From NCBI RefSeq assembly GCF_932294415.1, contig NC_065535.1, positions 15,476,282 through 15,540,281 of the forward strand: a stretch of 64,000 nucleotides of DNA, read 5' to 3'. Under the pieces are notes generated by a model. The model searched no databases. It was not told where the DNA came from and worked only from the letters and a program-made list of their open reading frames with translations. This stretch comes from Quercus robur. Taxonomy: Eukaryota; Streptophyta; Magnoliopsida; Fagales; Fagaceae. Positions within the stretch are counted from its first letter, which is position 1. Each line of letters starts with the position of its first letter. Shown in pieces: positions 32,194-63,874 of the stretch. The translations under genes were made by a program, and so were the position numbers.

Positions 32194-32458
32194 TCTATTT
32201 ATTGTTTAGGAGTAGATCTATCATGCTCCAAACTCAGCTGTATGAGTCAATGACTTGAGAAAAGTTACACATGCAACACATCAATCGTCTATTTATTGTT
32301 TAGGAGTAGATCTATCATGCTCCGAACGCAACCGTATGAGTCAATCACTTGACAAAAGCTGCACATCAATTGTCTATTTATTGTTTAGCAGTAGATGAGA
32401 TCTATCATGCTCCAAACTCAAAACTGTTTTGAGTCAATCACTTGACAAAAGCAGCGTG
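32194..32458. repeat. Tandem repeat, three units of 85-94 bp
   Basis: Units begin TCTATTTATTGTTTAG at 32194, 32288 and 32373. Each contains AGATCTATCATGCTCC and ends with a GAGTCAAT(G/C)ACTTGA(G/C)AAAAG-like piece. The end of the last unit (CACTTGACAAAAGCAG) is exactly where homology with the second copy of the segmental duplication starts (58792). Confidence 0.85.
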
Positions 32459-32742
32459 CAAGACCGTATTAAAGGATTGTGTTTGTTTTATTACACAATG
32501 TTTTTTTATAACTTGAATACGTGACTTTAAATGACATTTATAAGTCACAGTTACACACATTGTCTAAAACAAGTTTTTGCCTTACTAAAAAGAGTCATAA
32601 AAAGAGTTATAGTGGGTCTAGAAACTTGAAAGGAATAGTACAGTTTTCTCCTCCAGGTAGGAGCTTTCTCTCTCTCGTCTCTGAACGAGTTTACTCCCTC
32701 CCTTGGTTTTGTACCGAGGGTTTGTCTTTTCTTTTGTTGGGC

Positions 32743-34377
32743 ATGATGGTTGACGAAGTGATCAATAGACTAGAGAACATGAAACTTACAACAGAAGAGG
32801 AAGAAGTTATAGTGGTTTCCGATGAAGAAAGAAAGGATGAGATTGAAAGTTGTGCGCAGAGTTTAATCGGAAAATTCCTTACATGCAAACCCTTCAACAA
32901 GAGGGCAGCTTATAATACTCTTAAAAAGGTGTGGGGCTTACACAATGGGGTCCAGATTATGGAAGTTGGTCCAAATCTTTTCCAATTCAAATTTCATACA
33001 GAGTTTGACATGGAGAGGGTGCTCAAAGGGGGTCCATGGTCATTTGATAACCAAGCCCTAATGTTACGCAGGTGGCAAAAAGGCATGACGGCCAAAAACG
33101 TGAAATTTGAGTCCGTTTCCTTATGGTTCCAAATCTGGGGGGCCCCATTTGATATGGTATGGTGCGGAGGAGACTAGGGGTTGTAGAGGAAGTTGAGAGG
33201 AGGAAAAAACAGGAGCATCAGAACCTTTTTATGAGGGTCAAGGTTGCGCTCCCAATAGCAAAACCGATCCGGAGAGGTGGATTTATAGTAGGCTCGGACG
33301 GTGGTTGTACTTGGGTTACCTACAGATACAAGCGGCTCCCGATGTTCTGCCATTACTGTGGCTTGCTGGGACATGATGTTCGTCACTGCGCTGGCTTCTT
33401 TGCAGCGTCAAAGAATGGGGGCGAGGTGGAATGTCAGTATGGTGAGTGGCTAAAGTCTATGCGGCCACGTTCATGGTCTCCACCTAAAGGTGGATAGGGT
33501 CAATCCACACATAGAGTTGAAGCGGCAGAGGAGGTGCCTGACCGAAATAGGAAGCAACAAAACACGACGGCGACGGCGGTAGACGTGACAATGATTCATG
33601 AAATAAAGAAGGTGGCGAAATTTCAGAAACTGGTCCAGATTTTCAGGGAGTTAATGCATGCATGAATGAGGGGAACATAGCTATCACAGATATCATGGCT
33701 TCAACGTGCATGGAAATTAATTCGGTGGGTCTAAGTGGAGCTGAAGTGAGTGAGGTAATGAAGTGCCCGTTTGCTTTGGACGTTTTGTTGCTGAAGTGCG
33801 TCTGCGTTTTGGGCATGGGACCCATGCTACAGTAACACAGTAAACGCGTCCCCTTTTTTTTTTTTTTTCTTTTTTTGGTTTTCTCGCGTTTCACTACTGT
33901 TCAGCCGTATATGTTGACTTTTCAACTGTGAACAGTGCATTTATGCACTGTTCACGGACCCACAAATTCCACTTTTCACAATTTTTTTTATTAAAAATGG
34001 GTCCCACGGTACTATTCACACATTTAAAAAATATTTTGCTACAGTGTTTTCAGTTTCAGTTTTCAGTTTCAGCAAAAATAAGCTCAATCCAAACGGACCC
34101 GAAGTCTAGTGGGGAACATGGGGCGGGTACTTCACAGAATGGGCTTATCAAGCCAAGGCCCAAATCGCACAGGCTTTTATGCATGGAGTGCGGGCCTGTT
34201 GAGGAAACTAAGGGTGAATTATCCACTTCTCTGGGGAAAAGAAAGGTTTCAGCCATCTTGGAGGAGGACAATGCAGACAATATGGGGATACATGGCTCCA
34301 AGTGTGGGAAAACACAAGATGATTTAGCTATTATTGCTGAGGCAGGGGTGTCGGAACACCTTTGCCAATCACAATGA
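32743..34377 (+). pseudogene. LINE-1b ORF1 remnant (DUF4283 + zinc knuckle)
   Basis: Starts MMVDEVINRLENMKLTTEEE. The DUF4283 domain is evident (GGPWSFDNQALMLRRWQKGM, VSLWFQIWGAPFDM). After a frame change near 33165 comes CHYCGLLGHDVRHC, the zinc knuckle. A MITE splits the tail at 33763. The final segment (about 34101-34377) ends with TGA at 34375-34377, overlapping the ORF2 ATG as ATGA. Confidence 0.85.
33763..34100. mobile_element. Tourist-like (PIF/Harbinger) MITE inside LINE-1b ORF1
   Basis: The left end is GTGCCCGTTTGCTTTGGACG and the right end is CAATCCAAACGGACCC. It is flanked by the 3-bp duplication GAA (33760-33762, 34101-34103). At 338 bp it has no coding sequence. The 3-bp target-site duplication and the GGG(T/C)CCGTTTGG-type termini fit Tourist-like MITEs. 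A close relative lies at 37361-37652, and the two share their right 150 bp (ATGGGTCCCACG, CACACATTTAAAAA, CAGTGTTTTCAG). Confidence 0.8.
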
Positions 34378-34929
34378 GGCTTTTGTGTTGGAACTGCTAA
34401 GGGCTTGGGAACCCTTGTACAATTCGTAGCCTTCAGAAGCTCTTGAAGGATCAAGCGCCCACGATTTGTTTTTTAATGGAAACACGACTTAATAAAAAAG
34501 GTTTTGATAAGCATTGCAGGGAGGTAAATTTTCCTAACAAGTTAATAGTTAAGAAGCATGATTCAGGGGGTGGGTTGGCTCTGTTGTGGAAGAAGGATGT
34601 ATCAATGGATGTTATTAATTTTATTGAGAATGTGAGAGACCGCGCCCCCGACCCCCTTTTTATAGGATGTTGGGCTAAACTCATGTGAATGGGTGGAGTT
34701 GTGTTATTGCCTCTCAAAATGGAGATTCGACTAGTTATATTTTTCCCTTTAGATTAAGGGTTTTACAATGGAGTCGCCACTTATTTAATTATTGGAAAAA
34801 TAAGAAAACCATAATTGAAAAATTCCTCATTTTATTAATTTGAAATTGAATTTTCATTAATCATAGGAAAATTACATGACTTTGGTCCTAGATACAATCT
34901 AAGATAAAGTACATGGCTTTGTTTCCTAG

Positions 34930-36586
34930 TCTATATATATATATAAAACCGAAGTTTTTGAAGCTCCCACAATTTTCCACGTCAGCACAATATTTAAAAA
35001 AAAAAAAACAAAAAAAAAAACATAATTTAACTTTTCTAAAACCCGATCACTGTCTCTCTCCTCCTGATAAACCCTTTCTTTTTCTTTGCCACTGTTCAAA
35101 CTTTAGAGAGCTTCAATGGCTAAACAAAAAATGTGTTTATAAAAAAGCCAACTATGTTGACTTAAATAACTTCCAGAAACAACGAAACTCATTCATCGCT
35201 GTCAGTATGTCACCACTGAGATAGTTCGCTATATCCAAAATTACGCGAAATCCAAGGCGGGGCAATTCACAAAGGGACCAAGTGTATGAAAACAATTCCC
35301 ATGGCTTTGGTTGGTTGCTCTCAGGATGGGTTCATGATTAGAGAGTCAAAGAGTCTGGCAGGACCAGGATGCATAAGGTTTCTTTTTTAACATTAAAAAA
35401 CAATGCTGCCCCTCTTCTTCGTTACGCATGTGATATGTTCTACTTACATATAATTCTGTCTCTTAAAATTTTTATATGTATAGTTCACTTAATGCTCTAC
35501 AAATTGATCCAAATTCCAAAGGAAATGTTGAATAACAATCGGGACAATTAGAAATTTGAGAATCTGGGTTGCTTAATTATATGATTTTGTAATTACTTTT
35601 TTTTCTTCGATGATTTCTCTTTGTGCCATGCTTTGTGTTTCTTAACAAATTCTATAAACCCTCAAATTCATTCACCAAAAAATTACTTCCAAATCAAACA
35701 ACACGAAAACAAGTTGAGGCAAATCAAAATATAACCGATCAATTATCTTTGGATGTATTCAATTTGTTCTCATTAATGAGATCTTTGAGTTCTTTTATAA
35801 AATAAAATTATAAATAAATAAAGATTTCCGGCTCAGTGATAATGTCCAGTTCATAAATTTTGCTTTAGAAGTCACAGAACATTCTGTTTGCATTTCTTAT
35901 ATACGTTGTTGGTTTTGGTTTTTGCTTGAGTACTTCATATGCCACCCATCTAATGTTGAAATTTGAAATTGATCATTTTGCTTTATTCTTGCCAACTTGG
36001 GATCATTGTTTGTTCAATTACAATATACTTAGTTTGTCTTTGGTGTAATATTTGAGTGGATTCATGTTACAAAATAACTTTTTCATTCCTGTTTTAGAAC
36101 ATGCACATTATGTGTTTGACAAAATATCTCACTCTTGCATCTTTTTAAATTAACTTCATGGTTTGTGCGAAATCTTGGTAAGTTTGTTTGTTTTATTTAT
36201 TTATTTATTTATTTATTTATTTTTTACACCTCTTGGTTTGAGATCATCTATATAGCATATTCTACAACTTATCTATGATTAAAGTATGAATCTTTGATAC
36301 TGCAATTGTGTGGCCACTAGCGAGAAGAAACAATTACGTTAAGCCAATTTTGAAAACTTGACATTTTGGCTAGGTGCCACCGACTTAGTGTTTTTCATGA
36401 CCCATTAAAAACCAAGGGATTAAAATATCAAATTGATATGCAACACCAATAAAAATATTTTTAAATTATATTTCTTTAGATCTTGACATGGAAAATGATA
36501 TATTCAATATTAAAAAAAATATATATAATATTTTTTTAAATTTATTTTCAATAGTTTTCCCGTGCATCGCACGGGTTAGCGACTAG
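34930..36586 (+). mobile_element. Non-autonomous Helitron
   Basis: Starts TCTATATATATATATAAAAC, a common plant Helitron 5' end. It ends CCCGTGCATCGCACGGG (a perfect 7-bp stem with a 3-base loop, 36559-36575) followed after 7 bases by CTAG at 36583-36586 and then T. There is no target-site duplication, as expected. At 1.66 kb it carries no Rep/helicase. The part near 35190-35380 is less A/T-rich and might be captured host sequence, but I could not identify it. It lies within the solo LTR. Confidence 0.85.
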
Positions 36587-37360
36587 TTAAAATTTAAAAA
36601 TCGAAAATTACATGGATAAGCATTTGATCTACTAACCCTTGATCTAAGCTCGAAGGCTATGTTACAAGGTGGGAAGGTGTTAGGCACCCACCTTGCCCGG
36701 TGAAACTGGTCTTCTAGACTATGGTGGCCAACATTCATATGACATCATCCAATATGTTATCAATCAATTTGCATGTTGAATTTAATGTGTGTGCATGTGA
36801 TGACCCTAATTCAATTTATTAAGCATTGAAAAAATAAATTCTAGTGAATGTGTGTGGATGATGATAACCTAGATTCAAGGATTTGAAAGAATTATTAAAC
36901 AAACATGTTTTTCATACTTTTGATATGGATTTAAGATTAAATCTAATGATATGCATGAACATGTAATGAACAACCAAGAACATGTGAAGAACACATAAGA
37001 ACAATTAAAAACATTCAAACATATTCAAGGGAATTATCATGCTTTAATCTTAAATTCTCATCATGACAACATAAACAAATAGTTATGGAAGGAGATTATA
37101 CCTTCATGCAAGATCCATATGGTGGAGGAGAGACTCTTGATGGAGGTCCTAAGGGTGGAGGAAAAGAAGAGGTAGGAGAGGGAGAGTGAGTCTCACTCAA
37201 TACCTTAAGTCTCAAGAAGACCAAGATATGATAAGACTACTCAACTTCACTAGAACTCCAGAGAAGAGAAGAGAGAGGGGGTTTTTTGTGTTTTGGAATG
37301 AAGGAGAGGGGGGAGGTTTATATAGTAGTGGTGGAGGAAATATGGATGGAAGGCCATTTA

Positions 37361-37652
37361 GGTGCCATTTGGATTCGGCTGAATGTTGCGTCTGCGTCTG
37401 CGTTTCAGCTTTTTTTTTTTTTTTTTTTTTTTTTTTCATTTCACGCGTTTTGCAGAAAGGCAGGGACATTAACACTGTAGCAGTACTGTTTATACACTGT
37501 AGCAGTACTGTTCATGGGACCCACAGTCACTTTATTCATAAAAAAATATTAAAAATGGGTCCCACGACACTATTCACACATTTAAAAATTATTTTGTTAC
37601 AGTGTTTTCAGTTTTCAGTTTCAGTAACAATAAGTTCAATCCAAACGGACCC
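37361..37652. mobile_element. Tourist-like (PIF/Harbinger) MITE inside the solo LTR
   Basis: The left end is GGTGCCATTTGGATTCGG and the right end is CAATCCAAACGGACCC, with the 3-bp duplication TTA (37358-37360, 37653-37655). It is 292 bp long with a long poly(T) run inside. Same family as 33763-34100. Confidence 0.82.
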
Positions 37653-40600
37653 TTAATGAGGGTTGACAAAGAATCATGAACTTAGACCTCATTTTAGCCT
37701 TTGGGGAAATTTGGTGCATTAAATGTGGAGATTGATAAGAGTGAGAAGCAAGCAAAGTTCGATTTTCCCATAACTGCTGTAACAGCCCGTAGAACCAACT
37801 TCGAAAAATCATATCTAACTCAATTCTGATCAGAATTGTCTCATTCTTGTGCTCAAATTGAAGCCCCGAATTTCTAGTGTCTGGGAAAATTAACCTCATT
37901 CACAGATTCAAAATATTCTAAGAGATATCGCTGAAATGGTGAGCAGATGTCATTTGTTAGAAAATGGTTTCAGCACAATTAACATTAATAAGTCTCAAAT
38001 TAGCTCCCAATTAACATTAAATGGCTCTAATCACTCCCATTTCAGACTTAATTGGTTCCAAATTTACTCTAATTAAAAGATAATTGCACAAATAACTTAT
38101 TGAATAATTAATGTTTAACTATCTAGTTAATTAGGTGTGTGCAACCCTACCATAAAATGTAGTCCTAACCAATCAAATTATGACACATCATTGATCTCAA
38201 ATTGATTATACTTATAACTAATTGAAATCAATTGTTTATAATCACATATAGTCAGACTCAATTTATGATCGTGCATCTCAGCCATTAAAACTTGATTTGA
38301 TGATAACTTTCAATCTGATGGTCCGATTTGGGCTCATGACCAGTCGATTTAATCGTTACAACATTAAGATCATTTTGGTGAAATGAGATTAAGAATCTAA
38401 TAACTAGAATCAAGATGCATATTTTCAATGTAAAGTTACCCTTTTACCCTCCATGTGAGATTAAATGCGGGTTGCAAAATAGGGTGTCAACAGAGAATCA
38501 CATCTTAGCAAAGGTGGTTGAAGAGGATGGATTTGCATGGTACCTCACATGCTTTTATGGATGGCCCGACTCTAGTTAGAAAGCTAAATCGTGGGCTCTG
38601 TTATCACACTTGTCTTCATTTGTGGATGGTCTATGGCTGTGCATTGGAGATTTCAATGTGATATTGCACTCCACCGAGAAGCTCAGTCATCGGCTGCCTT
38701 CATACAAGCAGATGGATGAGTTCCACGAGGTGTTGGAACAATGCTCTTTATCAGACTTGGGCTTTCTTAGCTACCTTTTCACATAGAATAACAAGCGACT
38801 TGGACTCGCCAACACAAAAAAGCGCCTTGACCGAGCCGTTGCTATTGAGGAATGGAGAGCAAAGTTTCCAAAGAACACAATCACACATCTGTCCTCTCAC
38901 GCATCAGACCATTTACCAATCATTCTCCAGACCAAGGCCTCTAAGTATTGCCTCTCTAGGAGCAATATGGGGTTTAAGTTTGAAGAAGCTTGGTTATTAT
39001 GGGAGGATTGAGAAGCTGTGGTTCAAGAAGGTTGGAATAAAATAGAAGGCATGGGTTCAACTATGGCTAACGTGAAAGAGAGGATTGAAGGGTGTGGTAG
39101 GGAGTTGCATGCATGGGGTGCATCAAAAACACACCCTGACACCAAAAAAATAAAGGCACTTCAAAAGAGGATAGAGGTGTTGAATATGGGTGAGTGCACT
39201 GAAGAAAATAAAACTGAGTTTCTAATGGTCAATAAGGAGTTGGATGACCTCTTGCTTAAACAGGAGATTTTTTGGGCGCAACGTTCTCAAATCTCTTGGC
39301 TTAAACATGGAGATAAGAATACAAAATTCTTTCATTCTAAGGCCTTACAACGAAGACAGAGAAATTTATTCAAGGGATAAAGAATCATGATGACAGATGG
39401 ATGGAGGAAGTGGAAGAGATAGCAGGTGTGGCTACCAGGTATTTTGAGAATATTTTCAAGGTCGGTGAATGTGACAGGTTGGAAGAGTGCCTAGCTACAG
39501 TGCATCCTAAGGTGTCTCCTAATATGTGGGATATTTTGTCTAGTGAATATGGTCTGGAGGAAATTAAAGCAGTGTTGTTCCAAATGGGACCAACAAAGGC
39601 TCTTGGACCTGACAGTATAAATGCTCTCTTTTACCAAAATTTTTGACATATTGTTGGAGATGATGTGATTAATGCAGTGCTGGATTGTCTGAATAATGGA
39701 ATTATGGAACCTGATGTTAATTATACACATATTGTTCTCATTCCTAAAATAAAATCACTAGAAAAAATTACTGATTACAGACCCATTAGCCTTTGTAACG
39801 TCATTTTACAAAATTATCTCAAAGGTCCTGGCAAATAGATTGAAGCAAATCCTCCCCCACTTGATTGCTACCACTCAAAGTGCTTTTGTACCTGGCCGTC
39901 TCATTATTGATAACTTTCTTATAGCATATGAGTCCTTACATGTCATGCATTGTTGCAAAAAAGGTAGAAGAGGTTCCCTTGCTTTGAAACTAGATGTTAG
40001 TAAAGCATATGATCGGGTTGAGTGAGCCTTCCTAAAAGGTATCATGACAAAACTAGGCTTTCTTGAGGTGTGGATTGAGCGGGTCATGTGTTGTGTATCT
40101 ACCCCCTCGTTTTCTGTCTGTATCAATGGAAAATCCTATGGTAACATTATTCCGTCTAAAGGGCTTCGACAGGGAGACCCATTATCTCCTTATTTGTTTC
40201 TTTTATGTACAGAGGGTTTCTCATCATTACTTGTAAAAGCTGAGGTAGAGAACAGGTTGCATGGAGTGTTTATATGTAGGAGAGCTCCTAGCATATCTCA
40301 CTTATTATTTGCAGATGATTCCCTACTCTTTTGCCGAGCCACTCAAGATGAGGTTCAAGAAATAGTGGATATTTTGCAGCTCTATGCCACGGCTTTTAGG
40401 CAGCTTATAAATCTTGAGAAATCCTCAATATATTTTAGCAGCAACACAGATGGTGGGCAACGAAATTGGATAAAAACTAGGCTGAATGTTAAGGAAGTGG
40501 GCTGGTTTAAAACCTACCTGGGCTTACCAACACTGATTGGATGCTCAAAATATCAAGTTTTTGCCTTTCAAAAGGATAAAGTGTGGAAAAAGCTAGAAGG

Positions 40601-41337
40601 ATGGAAGGGGATAATGCTATCTAGAGCCAGAAAAGAGGTGTTAATAAAGGTCGTTTCTTAATCTCTACCAACATATACTATAGGGTTGTTTCAACTCCCT
40701 GTGAAGCTTTGTGATGAGCTCAATGCCATGTGCGCAAGATTTTGGTAGGGGCAGGTGGGAAATGAGAGGAAAATTCATTAGAAGAGTTAGGACTCACTAT
40801 CTAAACCAGTGTTGTCAATACCGTATCATACCGGCCGGTACGGCTGGAATATACCGTACCGGCCGGTGATCTGGTACGGTTAACCCCTACGTTTCGTACC
40901 GGTAAAAATACCGGCCGTACCGGCCTCGTACCGGCCAATACCAGCTGTACCGGCCGGTATTTGAATACCGGACCGAAACGTTAAAAAAACTTGTTTTGTT
41001 AATTCTGACATTTTCAAGGGTAAGATTGTAATTTTATTAAATCCTAATTCTAAAACCCTAAGTTCCTAACACTACCCAGTTCCCGCACAGCCCTCTTTCT
41101 TTCTTTCTCTCTCTCACGCTCTCTCTCAGCTACTCTGTTCTCTCAGTCTCTCGGCCAATCTTTCTCTCACTCTCGGCAGCTCCGCTGCTCTGTTTCTCAG
41201 TCGCCGACTCGCCGCTGCTCTGTTTCTCAGTTGCTGCTACTCTGTCTCTCACTCGCTGCCGCTGCTCTGTCTCTCACTCGCCGCTGCTCCGTCTCTCACT
41301 CGCCGCTGCTCCGTCTCTCACTCTCTCGGCCACTCTC

Positions 41338-41675
41338 AGGTAACGTTTTGTCTTAATTTTTTATGTGTGGAATTATATTTCATGTGGAATATGATAAATA
41401 AAAACTTGATTATTGTGTTTATGAATTGATAGCAAAATTGGTTATTGTGTTGGTTCTGTGTTCATGAATTGATATATATTGTTGTTTCATTCTTGATTTT
41501 GGTCTTAGGTAACATTTTGTCTTAATTTTTTCTGTGTGGAATTATACTTCATGTGGAATATGATAAATAAAAACTTGATTACTGTGTTTATGAATTGATA
41601 GCAAAATTGATTATTGTGTTGGTTCTGTGTTCCTGAATTAATATATATTGTTGTTTCATTTTTTATTTTGGTTAG
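41338..41675. repeat. 169-bp tandem duplication in the hAT leader
   Basis: AGGTAAC(G/A)TTTTGTCTTAAT occurs at 41338 and again at 41507, and the text after each is nearly identical for about 165 bp. Each copy begins with a potential 5' splice site (CAG or TAG followed by GTAAC), upstream of the transposase ATG at 41778. Confidence 0.85.
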
Positions 41676-41777
41676 CTTCAAATATTGGGTTAGTAATTTA
41701 CAACTTAGTATGACTATTAATAAAAAGGTAACTAGAGTTATTAACAAATAATTGATGGTATATTTGCAGTGTAAATT

Positions 41778-44269
41778 ATGACTGAAAATCAGTCAAGTGT
41801 AGCATCTGGCCCGGCTGTAAGGTCCGAGGATCTAGCATGGGCTTATGGCCGTGCTGTGCCGGATGCAAGAAATAACACCCAGTGTACTTTTTGTTGTAAA
41901 ATGATAAGGGGGGGGGGGGGAGGAATTACTAGGCTCAAGTATCATTTAGCTGGGATTTCGGGTGATGTTGAAGCATGTAAAAAAGTATCTGAAGATGTAA
42001 AATGGCAAATGAAACAGTTGATTGAAGATTTAAAGAAAAGTAAACAGAAAAAAAGAAGAATGAATAAAGAAATTGCAAATCCCTATGATGTAGAGGAGGA
42101 GGAGGAGGAGGATGATCATCATCATGATGAAGGTAATAATGATAATGAGAGAGGGGGTTCAAAGAGTCATTCATCAGTTAGTAATTATAACACTAAGGGG
42201 AAAGAAAAAGTTGGAGAAAAGTCAAACATTAAATCCTATTTTGCTCCAAGAACAAAACCTGGTTCTCAACCGTTCATAAGGTCTTCTTTGGCCTCAAAGC
42301 AAATGGTTGAGAAGGCAAGAATGAATTTTGCAAGATGGTGGTACCATGCTAATATACCTTTCCATGCCGCTCACTCTGTGTATTACCAAGAAGCTTTAGA
42401 TAATGTAACAGCTATTGGGCCTGGTTTTAAGGGACCTTCTTATCATGACTTGAGGGGGCCTTTATTACAAAAACATGTGGGTGAAATGAATGATTATCTC
42501 TTAGATGTGAAAAATGATTGGAAAGTTTATGGGTGTTCAATTATGTCAGATGGGTGGACAAATCAAAAGAGAGCTCCAATCATTAATTTTTTAGTGTATT
42601 GTCCTAGAGGTACCATGTTTCTTAAATCCCTTGATGTGTCAGACCTAACAAAGGATGCAGATACATTGTTTAAGTTGTTTGATAAAGTTGTTCAAGAAGT
42701 TGGGCCTGAGAACGTTGTGCAGTTCATTACAGATAATGATGCTTCTTACAAGTCTGCAGGAAAGAAGCTAATGCAAAAATATGGGACATTCTATTGGTCT
42801 CCTTGTGCAGCCTATTGCATTGATTTAATGTTGGAAAATTTTTCTGATAAAAGATATTTTCCTATCATTGATGAAACCATTCAAAAGGCTCAAAAGATTA
42901 CCAAATTCATATACAACCATGGCAAGATTTTAGCTTTGATGAGAAGCGACTTCACTAATGGTAGGGATTTGATTCGTCCAGCCATCACAAGGTTTGCAAC
43001 TGAGTTTTTAAGTCTTCAATGCTTGACTAAGTTCAAGAAAGAACTTAGGCAAATGTTTACTTGTGATCAATGGGTCGAATCTCGATATGCTAGGGATGTC
43101 ATGGGAAAAGAGGTGGCTGCAATTGTTTTGGAAGATAGAGAGTTTTGGTTACAATGTCAACAAATAGTGAAGATTAGTGAGCCTTTGGTTAGAGTACTAC
43201 GTCTTGTAGATGGGGATGAAAAATCATCAATGGGATACTTGTATGAGGCAATGGATGAAGCAAAGGAGAATATAAAAGCAAGGTTGAAGAATAAAATTTC
43301 TGCATATATACCATTTACTAGTGTCATTGATGCTAGATGGGATAAACAACTCCATAGTCCATTGCATGCAGCAGGTTGTTATCTTAACCCTGGAATCTTC
43401 TTTAGGCCATCATTTAAGAAGCAAAAAGATGTTACAAAAGGCCTACTTAGTACCATTATAAGGCTGGTTTCTGATCCTGATGAGCAAGATATTCTTAGTT
43501 CTCAAATTGAATCATACAAAAAGTCTTTAGGTGACTTTGGAATGCCTATGGCAATCAGCCAACGTGAAAAACTAAGTCCAGGTATGCTATATGTATCTAT
43601 ACATACGTACATATATATATATATATATACACATTTCATTTGAAAGTTTGTTATTTGCTTTGTACTAAATTAATAATTTCTTTTATTTTTGGAAGTTGCT
43701 TGGTGGGAGCAATTTGGAAATGACACTCCGGAATTACAAAAGTTTGCAATTCGAGTGCTAAGTCAGTGTTGTAGTGCAACTGGTTGTGAAAAAGCTTGGA
43801 GCACATTTGAGTTTGTCCATTCCAAGAGGAGAAATAGGCTTGAGCATAAACATTTGAATGACTTGGTGTATGTTCGGTATAATTTGTTGTAACGAGAAAG
43901 GTATGTTTTTAAATATATTCAATTTTTATTTTGAATGATTAGAAAATGTCACCAATGTATGATATTGATTTTGGTAGGAACATTAGAAGGACAAAGGATT
44001 ACTTGGATCCTGTAAGCCTTGATAATATTGATTTAATGGAGGATTGGGTAGCTGAGGATTCTGAATTTTTGTTACTAACTGAGGAAGATGTGAATTGGGA
44101 TAGCATTGAAGAACCATTAGCAACAATGACTTTAGAAGATGATAATGATGATGATGATGATGTTGTTGTACTTGATGAGGAAGATGGTGAAAATGATGTT
44201 GTGTTGACAGATGCTAATACTCATGTGTATTATGGTCCTGATGTAAATCCTTTTGAAGGATGGGAGTAG
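41778..44269 (+). pseudogene. hAT transposase (BED finger, DUF659, hAT dimerisation domain), one stop
   Basis: Exons 41778-43581, 43696-43900 and 43978-44269 by GT-AG joints; about 766 codons. Residues about 14-70 are a BED zinc finger (CTFCCKMIR...KYHLAG). A Lys-rich and Asp/Glu-rich linker follows. DUF659 lies near residues 210-360 with IMSDGWTNQKRAPIINFLVY and FITDNDASY. The C-terminal dimerisation domain (WWEQFGNDTPELQKFAIRVL, CEKAWSTFEFVHSKRRN) is in exon 2, and exon 3 is an acidic tail. One in-frame TAA at 43890-43892 lies just after the dimerisation core (RYNLL), leaving the catalytic core open. A run of 13 G (41908-41920) encodes extra glycines inside the zinc finger. The exon 3 joint is chosen for frame; a second acceptor at 43942 is out of frame. 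Confidence 0.88.
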
Positions 44270-44455
44270 ATCTTGTGTAATTTGTGTTTATTTGTTTTCT
44301 TTGTGTGTAATGAACAATTTTATATTGTGTTTTTTTTTTAGTTGATGTTAAAGTTTCAAACAATGAATTATTTGTTCTTAATTGAAGTAATGTTTTATGA
44401 TAAACATGAATTTTTGAGGTATTGTTTTATGGTAAATAGAGATTTTGTGTATGTA

Positions 44456-44486
<31 letters not shown>

Positions 44487-46182: not shown

Positions 46183-46196
46183 AAAAAAAAAAAAAA
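46183..46196 (+). other. Poly(A) tail of LINE-1b
   Basis: The A run after TTCATTCACTTTC ends the element; the last four A's before AGAGTCATAA belong to the target-site duplication. Confidence 0.85.
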
Positions 46197-53153: not shown

Positions 53154-53211
53154 TTAGGGGACAATGGTGCATTATTTTAGTATATATAAAATAAGATATA
53201 GTGTATGATGT

Positions 53212-53888
53212 CAGGGACGGAACAACTCAAGGGCAAAGGGGGGCCATGCCCCCCCCCCCCCCACCCCCCCAAAAAAAACCTTTGAAAAAAAAATATACTA
53301 GTATGTATATTAACAAAAAGAATTTTAATTCTAGCTCTTAAATTTATATACTTGGCTCCCCTCCCCAAAAAATTTACAAATTGACCCAAGAAATCCAACA
53401 AATAGATAACAAGCAAAATCTATAAAAAAAAAAATGCACATATCCATATAATAAGAAAAATCTTTGGACAAATCATAAATTCAATCTAAGCAAAACCAAT
53501 AACAACAAATTAATTACAAATCCTAGCAAAAAAAATCATAAAACCCAATAACCTTTACCCAATTTCTCCCTCTCACTTGAGAGTTCTATGCCCCTCTCAA
53601 ATGACTTGACCCTCATAGCCATAGAGACAACTCCTATGCCACATATTGATCGCTTTATCCACACATCAATTATACTTTGAAAATATTAAGATGTGCTAAT
53701 TGACTTGTAAAACTCTTGATTATAAAATCCTATTATTAAAGTTTTTTTTAAAGAAAAAATACAAATAATAATTAATAAATTAATGCTAATAATACAACTT
53801 TGTCAACTTCTAATATTAATATTCCAATTTCTTAAAATCTAAGAACAAAGAACTTTGGCCCCCCAAGTTTGAATCCTGGATCGTCCTG
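53212..53888. mobile_element. Non-autonomous hAT element, older than the duplication
   Basis: Starts CAGGGACGGAACAACTC and, inverted from the right, CAGGACGATCCAGGATTC. It is flanked by TATGATGT (53204-53211) and TATAATGT (53889-53896), an 8-bp duplication with one difference. Copy B keeps the right part of this element and the flank TATGATGT at 62927, so the insertion predates the segmental duplication. It is 677 bp, with C and A runs and no coding sequence. Confidence 0.82.
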
Positions 53889-54670
53889 TATAATGTGATT
53901 TTCCCAAAAACACAAACAAACAAAAAGAAAATAATACCCACAGAGAGAGAGAGAGAGAGATCATGAATTAATACCTATCATGTCCAAGGGGACCTTGCCA
54001 TCGCTGAATCTGCCTGTTGCAACTTTTCCTTTGAAGTCATTCCCATACGGACTGTAATTAGCCTTAGATGGAGTTACTCGATTGTCGTTGTTGCCTGTAT
54101 CCACTGTCGAACCTCCTAAGACAAAAATTGCAGGATAGGTTTCATTTGGTGGTAGCTTTATGACAGCCATGGTGTTGTAGAAGAGAACAAACAATATGAG
54201 ATTGAACAATAATATAGAACAAGGGTGGGAGTTCACAAAGAGAGACTGCATTTTCTTCATTGGCTTGCTTGCTCACAGACTCAATGTGAAAGACGTATGT
54301 ACAGGTTGGCGGGGTGTGCAGTTTCCTTTGCATATGATATAAATAGTAGGTTGAACTATTGTTTTAATCCTGCACCTAACCTTCCTAGCTCCGACAGTGA
54401 GGGGCATTTCCCTATTTAGTTTGGGAAGAAGGGCAAAAGGCTAATTAATTTTCCCAAAAAGGGCAGAAGCCCATTTTGTCCCTTATTTAACCATTAAAAA
54501 CTTTACCAGTTGAGCTAACTGAAACCCACTATAACAAATGTTTTTTAGTACACTCTGGTTTGGATATTTTTCAAAAGGGAAATATTATTCAACTTAGCAT
54601 CTTTTTGAAAGACCACGTTTAATTTTTTTTTCTCAAAATTCCTTTTTTTTTTTAGATAAAAAAATCTTAT

Positions 54671-54857
54671 GGGCAAATTATAACTTACCCACATGTGGTT
54701 TGGTGAAAATTTAAGTTGCTTACCTGTAATTTGAAATTTAACACTTTAGCCATCTGAAATTAGCTCAGTTAGAGTTCTGTAACCCACCTAGCTCTGTTAA
54801 AAACAGGGTTAAATATGTAATTTTGTTATACTTTTATGTCTCTCTCCTCCAAAAACA

Positions 54858-54893
<36 letters not shown>

Positions 54894-55880
54894 ATAAAAA
54901 TGTAAGATGAAAAAAGATCAAAAAGATGTCGGTAAGGTTTTGAAAAAAAAAAATTAAGAGAAAAGCTTCCTTTGCCTAAGCTAAAGTCCACTCTCATTCT
55001 TTGGTTGAGTCCACAAACAAACTTCCTACAAGCAAATCAATGTACCAAGGTACCAGTGATTAATGATTTAAATTTTCTGTGTGGATTGGATACTCTGAAA
55101 TAAATGAAGGCCGAAAGAAAGGTTGTAAGCAGTGGGCCAGTGACGTTACACCGACTAGTTGAGTGGGAGATTTCAAGAAAAACATGCTTCTCAATTGAAA
55201 GGATGTATGGTATGAACACTCAATCAATGGATTACTTAGAAAAATAGGATTAGTTGCTGTAAACATTATAAACAAATTAAAAGACAAAACTACACGATGC
55301 TTTTCAATCCCAAGCAATTATATTTGGCGTTGTGTTCAATATCGTTCTCTAGACATTGGAGGGGAGTACTTCAAAGCAGCTGTGCCCACTCCTTTAAAGA
55401 TTCCCAGTTGTCCCTTGAAACAAGTTTCAAGTTTATGATCACAAATCATGTAGATATACTACTTTAATCTAGTATTCACTCTAAAACTTAACCAGCAACC
55501 AAACAAATCAATGAGAAATTACAATGTATTTGAACATATATAAAGAAGTGACAACAGCACGATAAGGAGTATATCAGTGCATACAACCCAGTAAATCAAT
55601 GACGAAACAAGATTTCATGTAGTTGTATATAATTTTTTTTTTTTTTTAAAAAAACCTTACCAACATCTTTTCGATCCTATTTGATATTATATTTTTATAT
55701 TTTTTGTGTTTTTGGAGGAGAGAGATATAAAAGTAAAGCAAAATTACACATTTAACCCTATTTTTAATAGAGGTGGGTTATAGAACCCTAACCTCAGGTG
55801 GGTAAAATGTCAAATTTCTAACCACATATAGGCAACTTAAATTTCAGCCAAATCACAAGTAGGTAAATTGTAATTTCCCC
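54671..55880. mobile_element. Mutator-like foldback element upstream of GDSL copy A
   Basis: 1,210 bp flanked by the 9-bp duplication AAATCTTAT (54662-54670, 55881-55889). The terminal inverted repeats are about 240 bp: GGGCAAATTATAACTTACCC on the left pairs with the inverted GGGGAAATTACAATTTACCT, followed by shared words such as AATTTAAGTTGC, GGGTTAAAT and CTCTCTCCTCCAAAAACAC. There is no transposase. It lies just outside the duplicated block. Confidence 0.88.
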
Positions 55881-55889
55881 AAATCTTAT

Positions 55890-57463
55890 ATATCTAAATA
55901 AAAATACTTATAGAAGATCTTAATTTTACGGGAGACCATGAACCCCACCTAATCTATATGTATAGTTCTAACTCTATCCTCCATCTCAACCACCACATCC
56001 CATTAGCCAATTGCATATTAACATATATTATATGTGGATTAGGTTTCGAAATGGAGCCCAATGCCATTCTAATCATAAAACCGCAAATTAACATATATTA
56101 TATGTGGATTAGGTTTCAAAATAGAGCCCAATGCCAGTCTAATCATAAAACCACAAATAGCAACAATGGGAATTATCCACAATTTAGAGCTTCAGAAGGT
56201 TCATGCTTTCATTATTTCTTGTAAATCTTGAGATTATAAGCATATTTGACCTATTGATGCCTGATTCTCATATTCAAAAAAATTTAATAATAGGTGACGT
56301 GGCAAGATTGATATTATTTATTATTATTATTATTATTTTGCTAAAAATAGTGTAGTTCAATTGGTTAACAATTCCTAATATTTCCAATATGTCCAGGTTT
56401 CAAATCTTCACTCTCTTATTGTAACTATCTAATTATCCAAAAATTAAAAATCCTCTATTTTATTTATTTTTTGAGAATCTTTATTTTTGTGGTTAGGGAA
56501 CAGAGTTACAGAGATGATTTGACTATGCCCTCAGATTTCTTTTATTATTTTTCTATAAATACTTAAATAGGATAGGACTATAGGAGTACAAAGTAAAAGA
56601 AAGAATAAAAAATAAAAAGATAAGGGTAAATTACAAGTTACACTCCTAAAATTTGGGAGTGTTTGGATATTACATCCTGAAATTTCAGAATTTAGATTTT
56701 ATCCCCTAAAGTTTGGGGGTGTTTGGAATTTACACTCTGGCGTTTCAAAATTTAGATTTTACCCCATAAAGTTTGGAAGTGTTCGGATTTTTCACTCCCA
56801 AATTCTGAAACTTTAAAGTGTAAAATCTAAACATCTTCAAACTTAAAGGAGTAAAATCTAAATACCCCTAAAATTTAGAGGGTAAACTTCAAATTCCGAA
56901 ATGTAAAAAAAAGAAAATGAGGCGGTCGATCATTTTGGGTAGATGAATACTAGGAAAAAGACCCTACATCATCAAATAGTATTGTTAGATGTGAACATTA
57001 TTAATACTAACTTGTAACCTCATGCACATACATGAATCCGCCTAAAGATATACAATAAGATGCAAAGTATAATTCTTATATATATAATTTAAATATTATT
57101 GATAATCATTCTTATTCTTATATTTTGTTAACTCTTTAAAAAGTCTTATAAGAATATTGTTAGGTATAAAATGTAAACTGTCAATGTTTATTCATTTAAT
57201 TACTTTTATTTTTCTATTACTTCTTATATTTTGTTATTATGAAGCGCTTTTTTTTTTTTTTTTGACGATTCCTTTATTCTAAACTCTTTGGTTTTTGTAT
57301 TTAATAACTCACTTAGATGAATATTTAAAAAGTGGTTCCACATTTGATTCTAAAATTAGGAAATAAAACTCTCTCTAAAAACAAATAACTTAGGACACAT
57401 GGTACAAAAATGACTCTAATTTAATTGGATTTTCTTTGAGTTTTGCCAACTAATATTAATTTT

Positions 57464-57529
<66 letters not shown>

Positions 57530-57839
57530 ATATATGGCATGGTTTGCAATTGTAAATCTCCTATAAATGGGCAACTAATGTCTTTTTTGGAAATATCTCA
57601 AAAAAAAAAAATTTGGCATGGTTGAAACTATCTCAAGGGAAAAAAAAAAAGTATTTTTCGAAAAAGGCAACTAAAATAGTAAGCACTAATAATTCTGAAA
57701 TTTTAGGTGGGAGTTTGGATCGTAATAAATTCAGAGGTTCGTATTCGTACTATAAAGCAAAGAAAGGGATATTTAAATGCGGTTCATTAAAGCCACATGA
57801 TTAAGCAGTTGATTGATGAGATCATTCAATTGATAATTA
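55890..57839. other. Intergenic with small repeats
   Basis: A 70-bp tandem pair lies at 56017-56156 (ATTAACATATATTATATGTG twice). At about 56626-56880 there is an inverted-repeat stretch (GGGTAAATTACAAGTTACAC with internal GTTTGG(G/A)GTGTT repeats) that resembles Mutator-like termini. A (TA)n(GT)n microsatellite lies at about 57465-57524. No gene was recognised. Confidence 0.6.
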
Positions 57840-58791
57840 CTATAAGAGAGCTTTATGGCAGTTAAAATCGATATGAGTAAGGCATACAATAGGGTAGAAT
57901 GAGTTTTTGTTAAAAAGGTGATGAGGAAGCTGGGTTTTCATGGAAAATGGATTGACTAGGTGCTGAAATGCATTACAATTGTCACGAATTCAATCTTGAT
58001 CAATGGGGAAGCTCACGATAAGATCTGCCCAAGTAGGGGGCTTTGACAAGGAGACCCATTATCCCCATATCTGTTCCTCCTATGCACAGAAGCCTTTCAG
58101 CCCTTATTGTTGAAGCAAATAACAGCCAAAGTCTCACAGGAGTATCTATATGTAGGGGCTGTTCTAGGGTTACCCATTTGTTCTTCGCGGATGATAGTCT
58201 ACTATTCTGTCGGGTAGAAAGATAGGAATGCACCAAGTTGGTAGAAATCGTAAAACTCTATGAGGCAGCCTCAGGACAAAAAATCAATGCAGATAAGTCC
58301 GCAGTGAATTTCAGCCACAATACAACCCCCGAAGCAAGAAGTGAAGTCTTGGAAATCCTTGGACCTATGTAGGACACAAGACAAGGTAAATACCTTGGCC
58401 TGCCAACTGTAATAGGCAAGTCGAAGAATCAAGGTTTCGTAGAAATAAATGAGAGAGTTGGAAAGAAACTATTGGGTTGGAAGGAGAAAATGCTCTCAAT
58501 GGGTGGAAAGGAAATTCGCATAAAAAGAGTAACCCAGGCAATCCCCACGTATACCATGAGCTGCTTCTTGCCCCCAAAAGGCTTGTGTGATGATTTGGAG
58601 AGGATGGAGAGGAATTTCTGGAGGGGTTAGAAAGACTAGAAGACAAAAATGTCTTGGGTCAACTGGAGGAAAATGTGCATGTCGAAGGCACATGGAGGTA
58701 TGGGCTTCCACAATCTCCAAGCTTTCAACTTAGCAATGTTAGCAAAGCAAGCATGGCGCATCTTGGCTAATCCAACATGCAATGATTTTCT
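57840..58791 (+). mobile_element. LINE fragment, RT region (LINE-1c)
   Basis: Starts within the RT (LMAVKIDMSKAYNRVE), then shows GDPLSPYLFLLCTEA, FADDSLLFCR, GQKINADKSAVNFS, KYLGLPTVIGKSK and WKEKMLSMGGKEI, and ends at HNLQAFNLAMLAKQAWRILA. Several stops and frame changes are present, for example at 57902 and 58226. It is cut at both ends: no endonuclease precedes it, and at 58791 it stops abruptly where segmental copy B begins. Confidence 0.9.
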
Positions 58792-59650
58792 CCACTTGAC
58801 AAAAGCAGAGTGCAAGACCGTATTAACAGATTGTGTTTGTTTTATTACACAATGTTTTTTTATAACTTCAATACGTGACTTTAAATGACACTTATAAGTC
58901 ATAGTTACACACATTGTCTAGTACAAGTTTTGGTCTTACTAAAAAGAGTCATAATTATCTCCAAAAATTAATGGAGTAAATAATAGCTAATAAAATACCA
59001 TTAACATTTCCAATAATAATTATATAATAAAAAAAGAATAATATATATACATTGACATGATCCACAGTATGTACCATAGTAAAGAATAATAAAGAAAAGT
59101 TCGTGGATTCAGAGTTGCATTGGATAATGTCAATAAGTTTTACATGAGATAGCAAATTAGAATAGAGTTTTTCAACTTGTAAACTTCAATTCTACTGTGC
59201 TGATTTGTTTTCCTTGGAATTGGTAGTTAAGCCGTCGTAGTGGTTTTGGTTCTGGTGTTATTCCTATTAGCACAATATTGTGTTTGATTGCTTTAATCAA
59301 AGCCCTTACATAGTTGAACTAAATAATTAACTAGACATAATTGGCACAATCGGAGTCTCTGCCTCTCTTCTTGTTTAATAAATAAGAATTTATTCAATAA
59401 AACGGTGATACAATTGGAACATTTTGCAAATAAGCATCATTAACTACAGATCTTTCGAAATTGACAAATATTATTAAGTGAGAACACATAAGATGGATCC
59501 TTCGATTCTATTTGTGATCATTGTTGACATAATAAACAAGTATTATGTGTATGAATGAAAATCCAAAATCAAACATGACTTAAGGGAAGGACCAGGGCTG
59601 AACCACTGAAATTGATTGTAGTGGTAGAATTCAAAGAGAAGAAATCAACT

Positions 59651-62600
59651 TTACTGATGTCCGAAAAGCCTATTGCCGGCATTCTTGATGATTTGAGAAG
59701 TAATGATCTTGTATGCTCTTTCTGTGGGATGAAAACTATCCCAAAAAACATAGTCATTCACATCTGTACAGATTGCAGACGATGGGTTACATATTGGAGC
59801 TACCTCTATTAGTCCTGAACCACAACACCCTTTCTCCGCTATCTTAAAGCCTGTATATGTAATATACAGAAAAATTAATATTATTATTATTATTTTATAA
59901 AGAAAATAGCAAAGATCAATTGGTGAAATAGGAGGTTATTCGCTATTTGTTTGATTTTTCAAAAACAATTACTTAAGTAGCCTCAAACGGAACTATTTCG
60001 TTATGCAGCCTCATTTGGAACTCAAGTCTTTGAGAGTCGAGTTCCTACTCCAAGGGGTAACTCAAGTCTCAAAGACTCGAGTTCTATAGAGAAAAACACC
60101 TAAGTTGAGATTTTTTTTTTTTTTAAGTTTTTAGTGAAACTTGAGTTACAAAGAGTCAAGTTCTTCACATTGCTAAATAGCCTCATTTTTACATTTAGAA
60201 CTAACTCCCAAATACTAGAGTTCCAAATGAAGCTACTTAGCAAAATAGTTTCATTTGAGGTTACTTAATGAAATTGTTTGTGAAATTCAAATAAATAGCA
60301 AAAGAGGCTAGTGAAACAGGATGATGGTAATGGTTGATGACAAAGTCATTAAGATAACAACGTATGATTACTATTAAAAAAAAAAAACTGCTGTAAAATA
60401 TTCTTTGGGTTCCTCAAATATAGGTTAAGTTTTAGGAATTTAAAATGTGTACATTTTTTTTTATTTTGACCATTCATTTTAAATTTCAATGACAAAAATA
60501 GAACCAATATAGTCTAGGTTCCATTTTTGTCACTAAAATATGTATTCTATTAAATATATTACAAAAAAATTAATGAAAGTGACGAAGTTTTCCTTTCAGC
60601 CAATTTTGAATAAACCATTTTTGACACATAATTAGTTTTATAAACCGCTATGTCCAAAATAGTATACATACCATATTTCAAGGATAACAATATATATTTA
60701 TGTGACAAAATTTGTGAGTTACCATTCTTTTCAGGGTGCTCAATGAGATCAAGAAGAGGGTTGTAAATATCAAGATAGACCATCCTGCTATCAGGCATGT
60801 CCTTGTTAAGGGAATCCAACAAGGTAGTCAATTTAGCATTGAACAACATTGCTAGCTGATTGTGGCCTTCTCCACACTGTCTACGTACTCCTCCGGCAAT
60901 AGTTCTTTGTGATGGCACACATCCGATTGGCGGAGCTCCGAGTACTCCAATCCTTCGTGCTCCTAGTGAATAAATTTCCTTGAAAACATAACAAGGGACG
61001 TCAAGTATTATTATTGTTCTTGTCGGTTTATTTTAGAAACGAGAGTATCCAGAACTTATGGTTATTATGAGGTCCTGTTATTCTTGTCTATGTCATTCTT
61101 TTTTGGTTCTTTGGTAATAGAAATAGGAAAGCAACACTATTGCTACAATAATGAGCTTGAGTGTGACCAAGAAAGTTGTGTCATTGAAATTTGGAATTTA
61201 ATTGATAGGATGAAACCTTACCTTCAAGAATTGGGTAGCATACTTGAGCATAAGGTCAGTGTAGGAATTGAAATCGTACTCGTATCTTCGTAAAGTAGGT
61301 CCAAAATATACATTGGCGATGTCGCAGCTACTCAATGAAATGAGATATAGACTTTTGGTTAAGATGAAGTTTGTCTTGTTTGCTCCAACAATTCCTTGAA
61401 GCCTCACAATGTATTCTTTCAACATTCCAAGTTGATCGGACAACGACCAGCTTGACTTTGATAATAAAAAATTAAAAAGAAATCAAAATTAAAAAAAAAT
61501 GATAAAATGGGAAATACATTTTACACAAACTGTGCGTGCACCCAAAAAAAAGGAACAAAAGTATCGTGCATGTACCGCTAGTTTGGGTGTCAAGGGATCA
61601 TATCCAGAGCCACCAGAAGCAAAGCAAACACCTGTAATGAGGTCTTGAGGTTGCAGGTTTGGATCCATATACGCAGGTAAAAGTTCTTTAATTTCCAATT
61701 CCTTCACTAAAAGTTGAAATGGAATCAGAAATTGAACTTTGGGCATGAATTAAGGAAATTTTTAAATGAATGAAAAATTCTATTTTGACTCGTATGTATT
61801 CTAAATGTTCAAGTCCGTTTGGACCAACTTATTGTTGTAGCTTATTTGTATAATATTTATCAAAATATATAGCTTATTTGTATAAACTTTCAATTTTGTT
61901 TTTAAGTGTGATTAAAAAATATAACTCATATAAAAAGTAGAAAGAAAAAAAAAAAAGGAAATTACATTTTTTTTCCAGCTTAAACTATACCACATTTTAC
62001 ACTAACCCCCTTAAACTACGAAAATGCACCATCAGCACCTTAAGGGTGTGTTTGTTTAGAGGTGAAATAGGGTGGATGGAGCTGTTTAATGGACAAAAAT
62101 GTGCACATGGGCAATTCGTACAATTACTTTCTTCTTCTTTTTATCTTTTTTTTTCCTCTCTTTTTTTTTTGTGTGTGCTTTTCCTGAGCACTTCTTCCTC
62201 TCTTTTTTTTTTTTTTTTTTTTCTTTTTTTCCTTTCCTGGATGTTCCCTCTTTTTTTTCTTAGGTTGTGGGTGTGATAGTTGTTTAGGTTTTTTTTTTTT
62301 TTTTTTAACTAGATATGATTTTTTTTGGGACATGATTTTTATTTTTTACTAAATTGGGTGATTTTTTTTATCACTTTTTTGTTTTAATTGGCCATCATTT
62401 TTTAACAATTGTATATTAGTAAATTTATACAAATTCACTTTTTCCATCCCTCCACTTTTCCACTCCAAAAAAAAAAAAAATACGTATATATATATATATA
62501 TATAAATTAAAATCTTTTCATCCTCCCACTTTTCCACCCCTCCAACCAAACGAACCCTAAAACCAAAACCTTGTAATACTTAGACCCCTTACATCACTTT

Positions 62601-63294
62601 CCCAATTAAGTTTGACAAAAAGCATAGTCACATGAGTTCTGCATGACACCAACGGGCATGGAACCCACTAATCCCAGCTAAAATGATTAAAATGCGCCCC
62701 CCACATCAGTTACACTTTGAAAATATTAAGATATGCTAATTGACTTGTAAAACTCTTGATTATAAAATCCTATTATTAATTTTTTTTTAAGAAAAAATAC
62801 AAATAATAATTAATAAATTAATGCTAATAATACAACTTTATCAACCTCTAATATTAATATTCCAATTTCTTAAAATCTAAGAACAAAGAACTTTGGCCCC
62901 CCAAGTTTGAATCCTAGTTCGTCCTGTATGATGTGATTTTCCCAAAAACACAAACAAACAAAAAGAAAATAATACCACGAGAGAGAGAGAGAGATCATGA
63001 ATTAATACCTATCATGTCCGAGGGGACCTTGCCGTCGCTGAATCTGCCTGTTGCAACTTTTCCTTTAAAGTCAATCCCATACGGACTGTAATTAGCCTTA
63101 GATGGAGTTACTCGATTGTTGTTGTTGCCTGTATCCACTGTCGAATCTCCAAAGATAAAAATTGCAGGATAGGTTTCATTTGGTGGTAGCTTTATGACAG
63201 CCATGGTGTTGTAGAAGAGAACAAACAATATGAGATTGAACAATAATATTGAACAAGGGTGGGAGTTCACAAAGAGAGACTGCATTTTCTTCAT
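59651..63294 (-). CDS. GDSL esterase/lipase, EXL type (copy B, open)
   Basis: Five exons: 63294-63009, 61706-61576, 61455-61222, 60978-60723 and 59850-59651; all joints GT-AG; 368 aa, the usual size of plant GDSL enzymes. Residues about 14-32 form a signal peptide ([17 protein letters not shown]), so the enzyme is probably secreted. Block I is [15 protein letters not shown] with the nucleophile Ser. Block II is [15 protein letters not shown], giving the oxyanion Gly. Block III reads [10 protein letters not shown] where the family often has GSNDI. Block V is [13 protein letters not shown] with the catalytic Asp and His. The C-terminal part also has [12 protein letters not shown] and KGCCGSG. 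The closest family I recognise is the EXL1-6 group (extracellular lipases of flower and pollen coat). A TATA-like CTATTTATATC lies near 63371-63380 on the minus strand. The gene is the open partner of the decayed copy at 46895-54260. Substrate is unknown. Confidence 0.9.
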
Positions 63295-63710
63295 TGGCTT
63301 GCTTGCTCACAGACTCAATGTGAAAGACGTATGTACAGGTTGGCGGGGTGTACAGTTTCCTTTGCATATGATATAAATAGTAGGTTGAACTATTGTTTTA
63401 ATCCTCCACCTAACCTTCGTCTTTGTATTAATTTTGTCCCTAGATCCGACAGTGAGGGGAGAATAAACGTGTCATGTCTTAATTCATAAAACTAAATAAA
63501 AATGTGACACGTCTTATACTTTTAAGTATGGTGATTCTAATAATATGATATAAAATCACCAATTTAAATGTTGAATAGTTTTGAGAATTTTAGTCTTTGT
63601 TAGTATAAACTATATAGTATAGGAGATCAATCATAAGAGCTTTTATAGCAAATGTTTTTTTTTTTTTTTATTATAAAGTTTCAATCGGTAATGTTTGCTT
63701 TTGATGATTA

Positions 63711-63823
63711 TGTTTTTTATTATCAAACTAAGACATCAATCAGTTTTTAATGTAGACAGAGATTAAATCTCATATCTCTTATTTAACCCTCAGAGACTTT
63801 ACCAGTTGAGTTAACTAAAACCT
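63711..63823 (-). mobile_element. tRNA-derived SINE
   Basis: Read on the minus strand: GTTAACTCAACTGGTAAAG (A-box-like), then GAGATATGAGATTTAATCTC (B-box-like, mutated), then CTGTCTACA and a tail ACTGATTGATGTCTTAGTTT ending in TGATAATAAAAAAC. Part of it (TTTACCAGTTGAGCTAACTG) also occurs in copy A near 54505-54523, so it predates the segmental duplication. It is a degenerate SINE; the boxes are too altered for a tRNA gene. Confidence 0.7.
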
Positions 63824-63874
63824 ACTATAACAAATGTTTTTTAGTATACTCCAGTTTGGAAATTATCATGTTTT

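Follow-up and report, generated by a model that had tools for sequence, protein, structure and literature searches.

Nested transposon stratigraphy is usual in plant intergenic DNA, and the duplication of plant genes by gap patching, as filler DNA, was reportedly first proposed by Wicker et al. in 2010. Filler-DNA gene duplication by double-strand break repair is described in plants (PMC3445842; PMC3503983), and such repair is given as a cause of large insertions and deletions in wheat (PMC6097286). Five-exon structures occur among plant GDSL esterase/lipase (GELP) genes (PMC9602515). The locus considered here lies in a 64,000-nucleotide stretch of Quercus robur (hereafter the window; assembly GCF_932294415.1, contig NC_065535.1, positions 15,476,282 to 15,540,281, forward strand). 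It holds two versions, A and B, of a segment carrying a GDSL lipase gene. In the reading that we consider probable, the gene was copied from A into a dead long interspersed nuclear element (LINE), termed L1c, by gap repair or template switching, and A then decayed. No description of the locus was found in the literature, by searches that were aimed at neither the locus nor the species. An initial annotation of the window had proposed a segmental duplication with filled and empty insertion sites; to that first reading the present analysis adds the lipase gene, the probable LINE-1 acceptor and the damage to the parental copy.

Two Copies of One Segment

32439-54568, minus strand: copy A, homologous segment interrupted by insertions, with a GDSL pseudogene and probably the ancestral context (BLAST blocks, alignments)
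58793-63864, minus strand: copy B, the probable derived copy, holding a GDSL esterase/lipase gene, its introns and flanking DNA (BLAST blocks to A, alignments, K80)

The proposed duplication is borne out by BLAST comparison of the window with itself, which gives collinear A/B blocks at 86.7-96.3% identity with best E-values of 0.0, the lowest identity being that of a 90-bp block at the right end. Over nine aligned blocks (4539 sites) the K80 divergence is 0.047. The alignment that the initial annotation had suggested yields a non-coding divergence of 0.051 +/- 0.004, against 0.034 +/- 0.006 within exons; the count omits stretches confined to A or to B and the right-end stretch without usable alignment (A 54406-54478, B 63460-63774), and a few sites at block joins entered it twice. 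Outside the exons divergence is fairly even along the unit, at 0.023-0.084 in 12 bins of up to 300 sites each. Around exon 1 (53736-54327 versus 62776-63361) the non-exon value is 2.3% against 4.9% overall (P 0.02, uncorrected for the 12 bins), for which constraint, gene conversion and chance are possible readings.

The two copies had been thought to share the same flanks, and this does not hold. Homology halts at 32439/58793 and at 54568/63864, and the outer sequence differs, B being sandwiched in LINE-1 sequence and the left border of A lying in a tandem repeat. Both copies have the same orientation, with a present gap of 4.2 kb between them, and about 6.4 kb of A is left once its three unique insertions are subtracted. 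A stretch of 1551 bp (A 52108-53658) is missing from B, where the junction is C-rich; it is read as a deletion in B because the gap cuts through an old hAT element. About 145 bp of A (about 50781-50925), directly left of the insertion site of a hAT element described below, are likewise not in B. An A-only stretch of some 48-51 bp (46499-46549) and a 62-bp B-only stretch (59363-59424) are both ambiguous in polarity.

The GDSL Gene, Intact in B and Broken in A

What does the duplicated unit carry? It holds a GDSL esterase/lipase gene, read from the minus strand, whose five exons are these.

63009-63294, minus strand: copy B exon 1, with the GDS motif (open frame, GT donor)
61576-61706, minus strand: copy B exon 2 (AG acceptor, GT donor)
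61222-61455, minus strand: copy B exon 3 (spliced frame)
60723-60978, minus strand: copy B exon 4 (spliced frame)
59651-59850, minus strand: copy B exon 5, with the stop (spliced frame)
53975-54260, minus strand: copy A exon 1, GDS changed to GGS (alignment to B)
50356-50451, minus strand: copy A exon 2 remnant, without the acceptor and first 35 bp (BLAST, alignment)
50006-50239, minus strand: copy A exon 3 (alignment to B)
49507-49762, minus strand: copy A exon 4, PPIGC changed to PPIRC (alignment to B)
46895-47094, minus strand: copy A exon 5 (alignment to B)

Copy B retains an intact 368-codon frame with GT-AG borders at all four introns, and its spliced 368-residue product matches Pfam PF00657 (E-value 9.6e-27; 94.9 bits, cut-off 23.6). 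Its five exons fit a structure common in the plant GDSL family. The marks that define this family are a GDS motif with the nucleophile serine near the N-terminus and a histidine in a C-terminal block; the product of B has both the GDS motif and a C-terminal FWDSFHP. A search of solved structures returned one weak relative (8a24, E-value 0.00063), which was not informative, and tblastn over the window outside the A and B exons found no further GDSL copy, giving only E-values of 2.3 or worse. A retrocopy made by LINE-1 machinery can be set aside for B, because the introns are present.

Copy A has no counterpart of 79 bp of B (61672-61750) in which lie the acceptor of intron 1 and 35 bp from the start of exon 2. 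As the gap takes in exon sequence, we read it as a deletion in A. The aligned exons of A contain no in-frame stops. Exon 1 of A has no match to the family profiles up to an E-value of 1, that of B scoring 14.2 bits (below the 23.6 cut-off), and exons 3-5 together score 57.7 bits in A versus 65.9 in B. The exons of the two copies differ by 17 synonymous and 18 non-synonymous changes (dS 0.076, dN 0.022, dN/dS 0.29). On these sequence features, B would be the working gene.

A Probable LINE-1 Acceptor and the Direction of Copying

The window holds a less decayed LINE-1, LINE-1a (10820-16557), with one 921-residue open frame matching RVT_1, zf-RVT and RVT_3, a separate endonuclease frame, and 4 stops over its three frames, terminal ones included. 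Its second open reading frame (ORF2) provides the reference for the sequence on either side of copy B; the third feature below lies at the outer border of copy A.

57852-58792, plus strand: left part of L1c, degraded LINE-1 reverse transcriptase ending at copy B (aligns to LINE-1a ORF2 residues 131-434, 7 stops)
63865-64000, plus strand: right part of L1c, LINE-1 RNase H running off the window (aligns to LINE-1a ORF2 residues 877-909)
32187-32452: tandem repeat across the left border of copy A (by eye, three units, each about 86-94 bp)

The left alignment (57852-58762, 47-53% to LINE-1a) halts 30 bp left of B at residue 434, and the right one starts at 63897, 32 bp right of B, at residue 877, with 33 aligned residues at 52%. 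Both pieces lie on the same strand and in order, with residues 435-876 (about 1.3 kb) missing between them; their Pfam scores fall below cut-off (RVT_1, 21.2 bits against 29.6; RVT_3, 20.7 bits against 21.6). The simplest reading, we infer, is that they are one element, L1c, in which about 1.3 kb has been replaced by the 5-kb copy. The tandem repeat of A runs on outward from its left border, B holding only the last 14 bp of it, and the undisturbed left context thus belongs to A and not to B. B is probably the derived copy, because its ends cut LINE-1 sequence and the left border of A sits in the outward-continuing repeat. By eye, the borders of B have no transposon ends, and little or no homology is visible at its junctions. 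Within the spacer between copy A and L1c, 54671-55880 has inverted ends of about 230 bp (79%) and a 9-bp target duplication, AAATCTTAT, and is Mutator-like by these marks.

The following history is offered as the best explanation of these sequence relations. A break or collapsed fork would have arisen inside the already dead L1c, about 3 kb right of copy A. The GDSL gene, together with introns and a short length of flanking DNA, would then have been copied as DNA, without change of orientation, into L1c, about 1.3 kb of which would have been lost as copy B took its place. Gap patching by synthesis-dependent strand annealing, or template switching during replication, may have done this; these mechanisms are suggested because transposon ends are not visible, acceptor DNA would have been lost and introns are present.

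Could an ordinary tandem duplication have produced the same arrangement? The duplicated unit would have been longer, with its left break in the tandem repeat of A and its right break in L1c, and a deletion in the second copy would have taken the spacer and the reverse-transcriptase part of L1c, leaving RNase H beside the gene. The direct orientation and closeness of A and B are in keeping with this, and expanded plant GDSL groups grew mostly by tandem duplications (PMC9602515). Two events are required, and in the self-comparison the 136 bases to the right of B do not match the spacer (54569-57700). We regard this alternative as unlikely. That B is instead ancestral and A derived has in its favor the intactness of B; it is very improbable given that both ends of B cut LINE-1 sequence and that the left end of A sits in an unbroken tandem repeat, only the terminal 14 bp of which are in B.

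Insertions Younger and Older than the Duplication

Copy A carries three insertions for which the initial annotation had reported single, unoccupied sites in B, and this is confirmed. Two are LINE-1b and a Mutator-like element; the third is a hAT miniature inverted-repeat transposable element (MITE). Each is flanked by a target-site duplication (TSD).

32601-46196, plus strand: LINE-1b with nested insertions, 13596 bp (14-bp TSD, 32587-32600 / 46197-46210)
47881-49422: Mutator-like element in intron 4 of copy A (TSD TCCAAAATA, long terminal inverted repeats)
50937-51498: hAT MITE in intron 1 of copy A (TSD GTTTAATG, short inverted ends)

The empty site of LINE-1b is single in B (58941-58954, AAAAAGAGTCATAA) with matching flanks, and the duplications in A are identical at 14/14 bases. 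A tail of A bases precedes 46197 and the first five TSD bases, also A, merge with it, so that the TSD length is 9 to 14 bp. LINE-1b was inserted about 0.7 kb downstream of the stop of copy A. The Mutator-like element has ends inverted at 84% over 304 aligned columns and a TSD matching at 9/9, with a single site in B at 60653-60661 (TCCAAAATA); for the hAT MITE the duplications agree at 8/8 and the site in B is single at 62084-62091 (GTTTAATG), with about 10 bp of left flank comparable given the gap of about 145 bp in B. No excision footprints were seen at the three B sites, each of which is a clean, exact, single target. Judged by these sites, LINE-1b, the Mutator-like element and the hAT MITE would each be younger than the duplication, in no fixed order among themselves.

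The nesting within LINE-1b was also correctly described at the outset, and involves these elements, among them a solo long terminal repeat (LTR).

33763-34100: MITE in LINE-1b (3-bp GAA repeats at its ends)
34631-38492: solo LTR in LINE-1b (TG...CA, TSD GAGAA on both sides)
34930-36586: Helitron-like element in the LTR (TC...CTAG, hairpin CCCGTGCATCGCACGGG near its end)
37361-37652: MITE in the LTR (TSD TTA; related to 33763-34100, 88% over 112 bp)
40807-44602, plus strand: hAT element in LINE-1b (TSD ATCTAAAC/ATCTAAAC, 8/8; short inverted ends)

Aligned to LINE-1a, the coding pieces of LINE-1b break at the solo LTR and at the hAT element, and the MITE at 33763-34100 has the last ORF1 match on one side and the endonuclease match on the other. 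The hAT element encodes a protein with zf-BED and DUF659 domains at 41775-43643 (Pfam); upstream of this transposase frame, a head-to-tail pair of 170-bp units (94%) lies at 41334-41672. The two short elements are presumably MITEs, and the Helitron-like label follows the hallmarks of that class.

Elements shared by the copies form an older layer.

53212-53888: old hAT element, whole in A (TSD TATGATGT/TATAATGT, 7/8; short inverted ends)
63655-63825, minus strand: short interspersed nuclear element (SINE) in B, between TATAGCAAATG (63644-63654) and TATAACAAATG (63826-63836)
47172-47538 in A and 59934-60310 in B: intron-4 MITE (11-bp end repeats, GTGAAACAGGA)
50744-51962 in A and 62044-62557 in B: intron-1 MITE (ends GGGTGTGTTTG / CAAATGAACCC)

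The old hAT element and the SINE had been placed in both copies, which is partly right. Of the 677 bp of the hAT element, B has the right third, the 230-bp counterpart of A 53659-53888, but the rest (A 53212-53658) is absent; the SINE is present in each copy but is complete only in B, A keeping its right part (given as 54479-54540 and, for the SINE itself, as 54479-54529). The SINE flanking repeats, TATAGCAAATG and TATAACAAATG, are alike at 10/11. We take this element to be a SINE from its tRNA-like A box, and 50744-51962, which in A contains the younger hAT MITE, is presumably itself a MITE. From their distribution, these four elements would be older than the duplication, as would L1c.

After the duplication, copy A would have lost the start of exon 2 and gained LINE-1b, the Mutator-like element and the hAT MITE. 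LINE-1b would then have gained a MITE, an LTR element (now the solo LTR) and the hAT element, and the LTR in turn the Helitron-like element and a MITE. From its intron 1, copy B would meanwhile have shed about 1.55 kb and, probably, about 145 bp more, with its frame kept intact. The relative order given in the initial annotation survives, running from the shared old elements through the duplication to LINE-1b, then to the insertions nested in it and last to those in the LTR; L1c is added as a layer below the duplication.

If the three elements had once been in B and been removed from it by excision or gene conversion, the empty sites would say nothing of order. The missing 145 bp beside the hAT-MITE site and an excess of stops in LINE-1b over the A/B-divergence prediction lend this some color. 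It is nonetheless highly improbable: the sites are single and exact, LINEs are not known to excise precisely, and non-exon divergence keeps its fairly even course along the unit, the lowest bin having an uncorrected P of 0.02. Misassembly, or the end-to-end placement of two haplotypes, is an equally remote prospect. The case rests on assembled sequence and not reads, but the copies differ by about 5%, have different outer flanks where an uncollapsed haplotype would have common ones, and bear independent insertions and deletions with clean target duplications.

Clocks and Points Against Copying from A

Several observations weigh against the history in which the gene was copied from A into L1c and A then decayed. 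The unity of L1c rests on order, strand and position, and its right piece amounts to 33 aligned residues at the window end. A dN/dS of 0.29 is low if A was neutral throughout (P 0.0003-0.29, by rate and constraint on B); neutrality of A from the start is compatible with the data at the non-coding rate (P 0.08-0.29) and is at odds with them when dS is used (P 0.007 or less). GDSL block III, placed by eye, reads SSCDIAN in both copies, with cysteine at the position where asparagine is usual, and for this reason catalysis by the product of B is uncertain. A comparison of T/A in A facing C/G in B with the reverse shows no clear excess that would mark a methylation asymmetry (57 versus 49 non-exon sites, 14 versus 14 exon sites, 16 versus 13 in CG context), and the C-to-T counts thus give no sign of longer silencing of A.

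LINE-1b adds a further difficulty. Its 1461 aligned codons include 12 in-frame stops, where half the A/B non-coding divergence predicts 4.8 (P = 0.004) and dS predicts 7.1 (P = 0.058); taken alone, this excess would place LINE-1b before the duplication. Nine of the 12 stops face W, Q or R of LINE-1a, and the excess would fit raised C-to-T change in a silenced element; other possible accounts are that LINE-1b was defective on arrival, or that B was copied from an allele without it. Since the stops exceed expectation, either rates are unequal across layers or one assumption fails.

L1c, with 7 stops in 336 codons, appears older than LINE-1b, as expected, but not significantly so (Fisher P 0.068, or 0.075 with slightly different counts). 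In the five post-duplication TSDs, 44/44 bases are identical (14+9+8+5+8) where 2.2 differences are expected (P 0.11); this count leaves out the 3-bp MITE repeats, and 5 of its 44 bases are the A residues merging with the LINE tail. It is consistent with later insertion and not decisive. The stratigraphic dating proposed at first therefore holds as an order, by nesting and empty sites, but dates from divergence are unsafe, because LINE-1b carries more stops than the age of the duplication predicts.

More tentatively, and at somewhat less than even likelihood, copying from A into L1c may have been followed by a relay of function, in which the daughter gene in the dead LINE-1 took over and the parental locus was freed to break and to collect about 15.7 kb of transposons. 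If true, a single locus would preserve the loss of constraint together with the order in which elements invaded.

Other Features of the Window

7620-9197, minus strand: open frame of 525 residues containing pentatricopeptide repeats
9369-10050: two tandem units of about 350 bp, 98% identical
28774-29527: related units in a tandem array, 80-89% identical

Comparison with Known Systems

The duplication is real, its relative stratigraphy sound and the event of a known kind; the locus opens no new question. Its value lies in the A/B pair, an internal control of equal age in which one copy is filled with transposons and the other is not, and in which the damage to the parental gene can be read. As an example it is compact, combining a probable gap-patching duplication with the build-up of insertions in a dying gene.

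How, then, does it compare with what is known? The nested stratigraphy had been called unusually complete. As in plant intergenic DNA generally, order is given by nesting and by empty paralogous sites; the layers are clean and well preserved, but in our judgement they do not differ in kind from those of other plant genomes. With plant gap patching the locus shares an intron-containing gene fragment that sits at an unrelated place and is not bounded by transposon ends, here probably with acceptor DNA lost. It differs in that the donor is nearby, across the present 4.2 kb, and in that the inside of a LINE-1 would have been the acceptor. Local duplication in the GELP family (PMC9602515) offers a further likeness, in a five-exon gene with a close duplicate and one decayed copy, and a difference, in that the junctions here fall within LINE-1 sequence where a simple head-to-tail boundary is absent.

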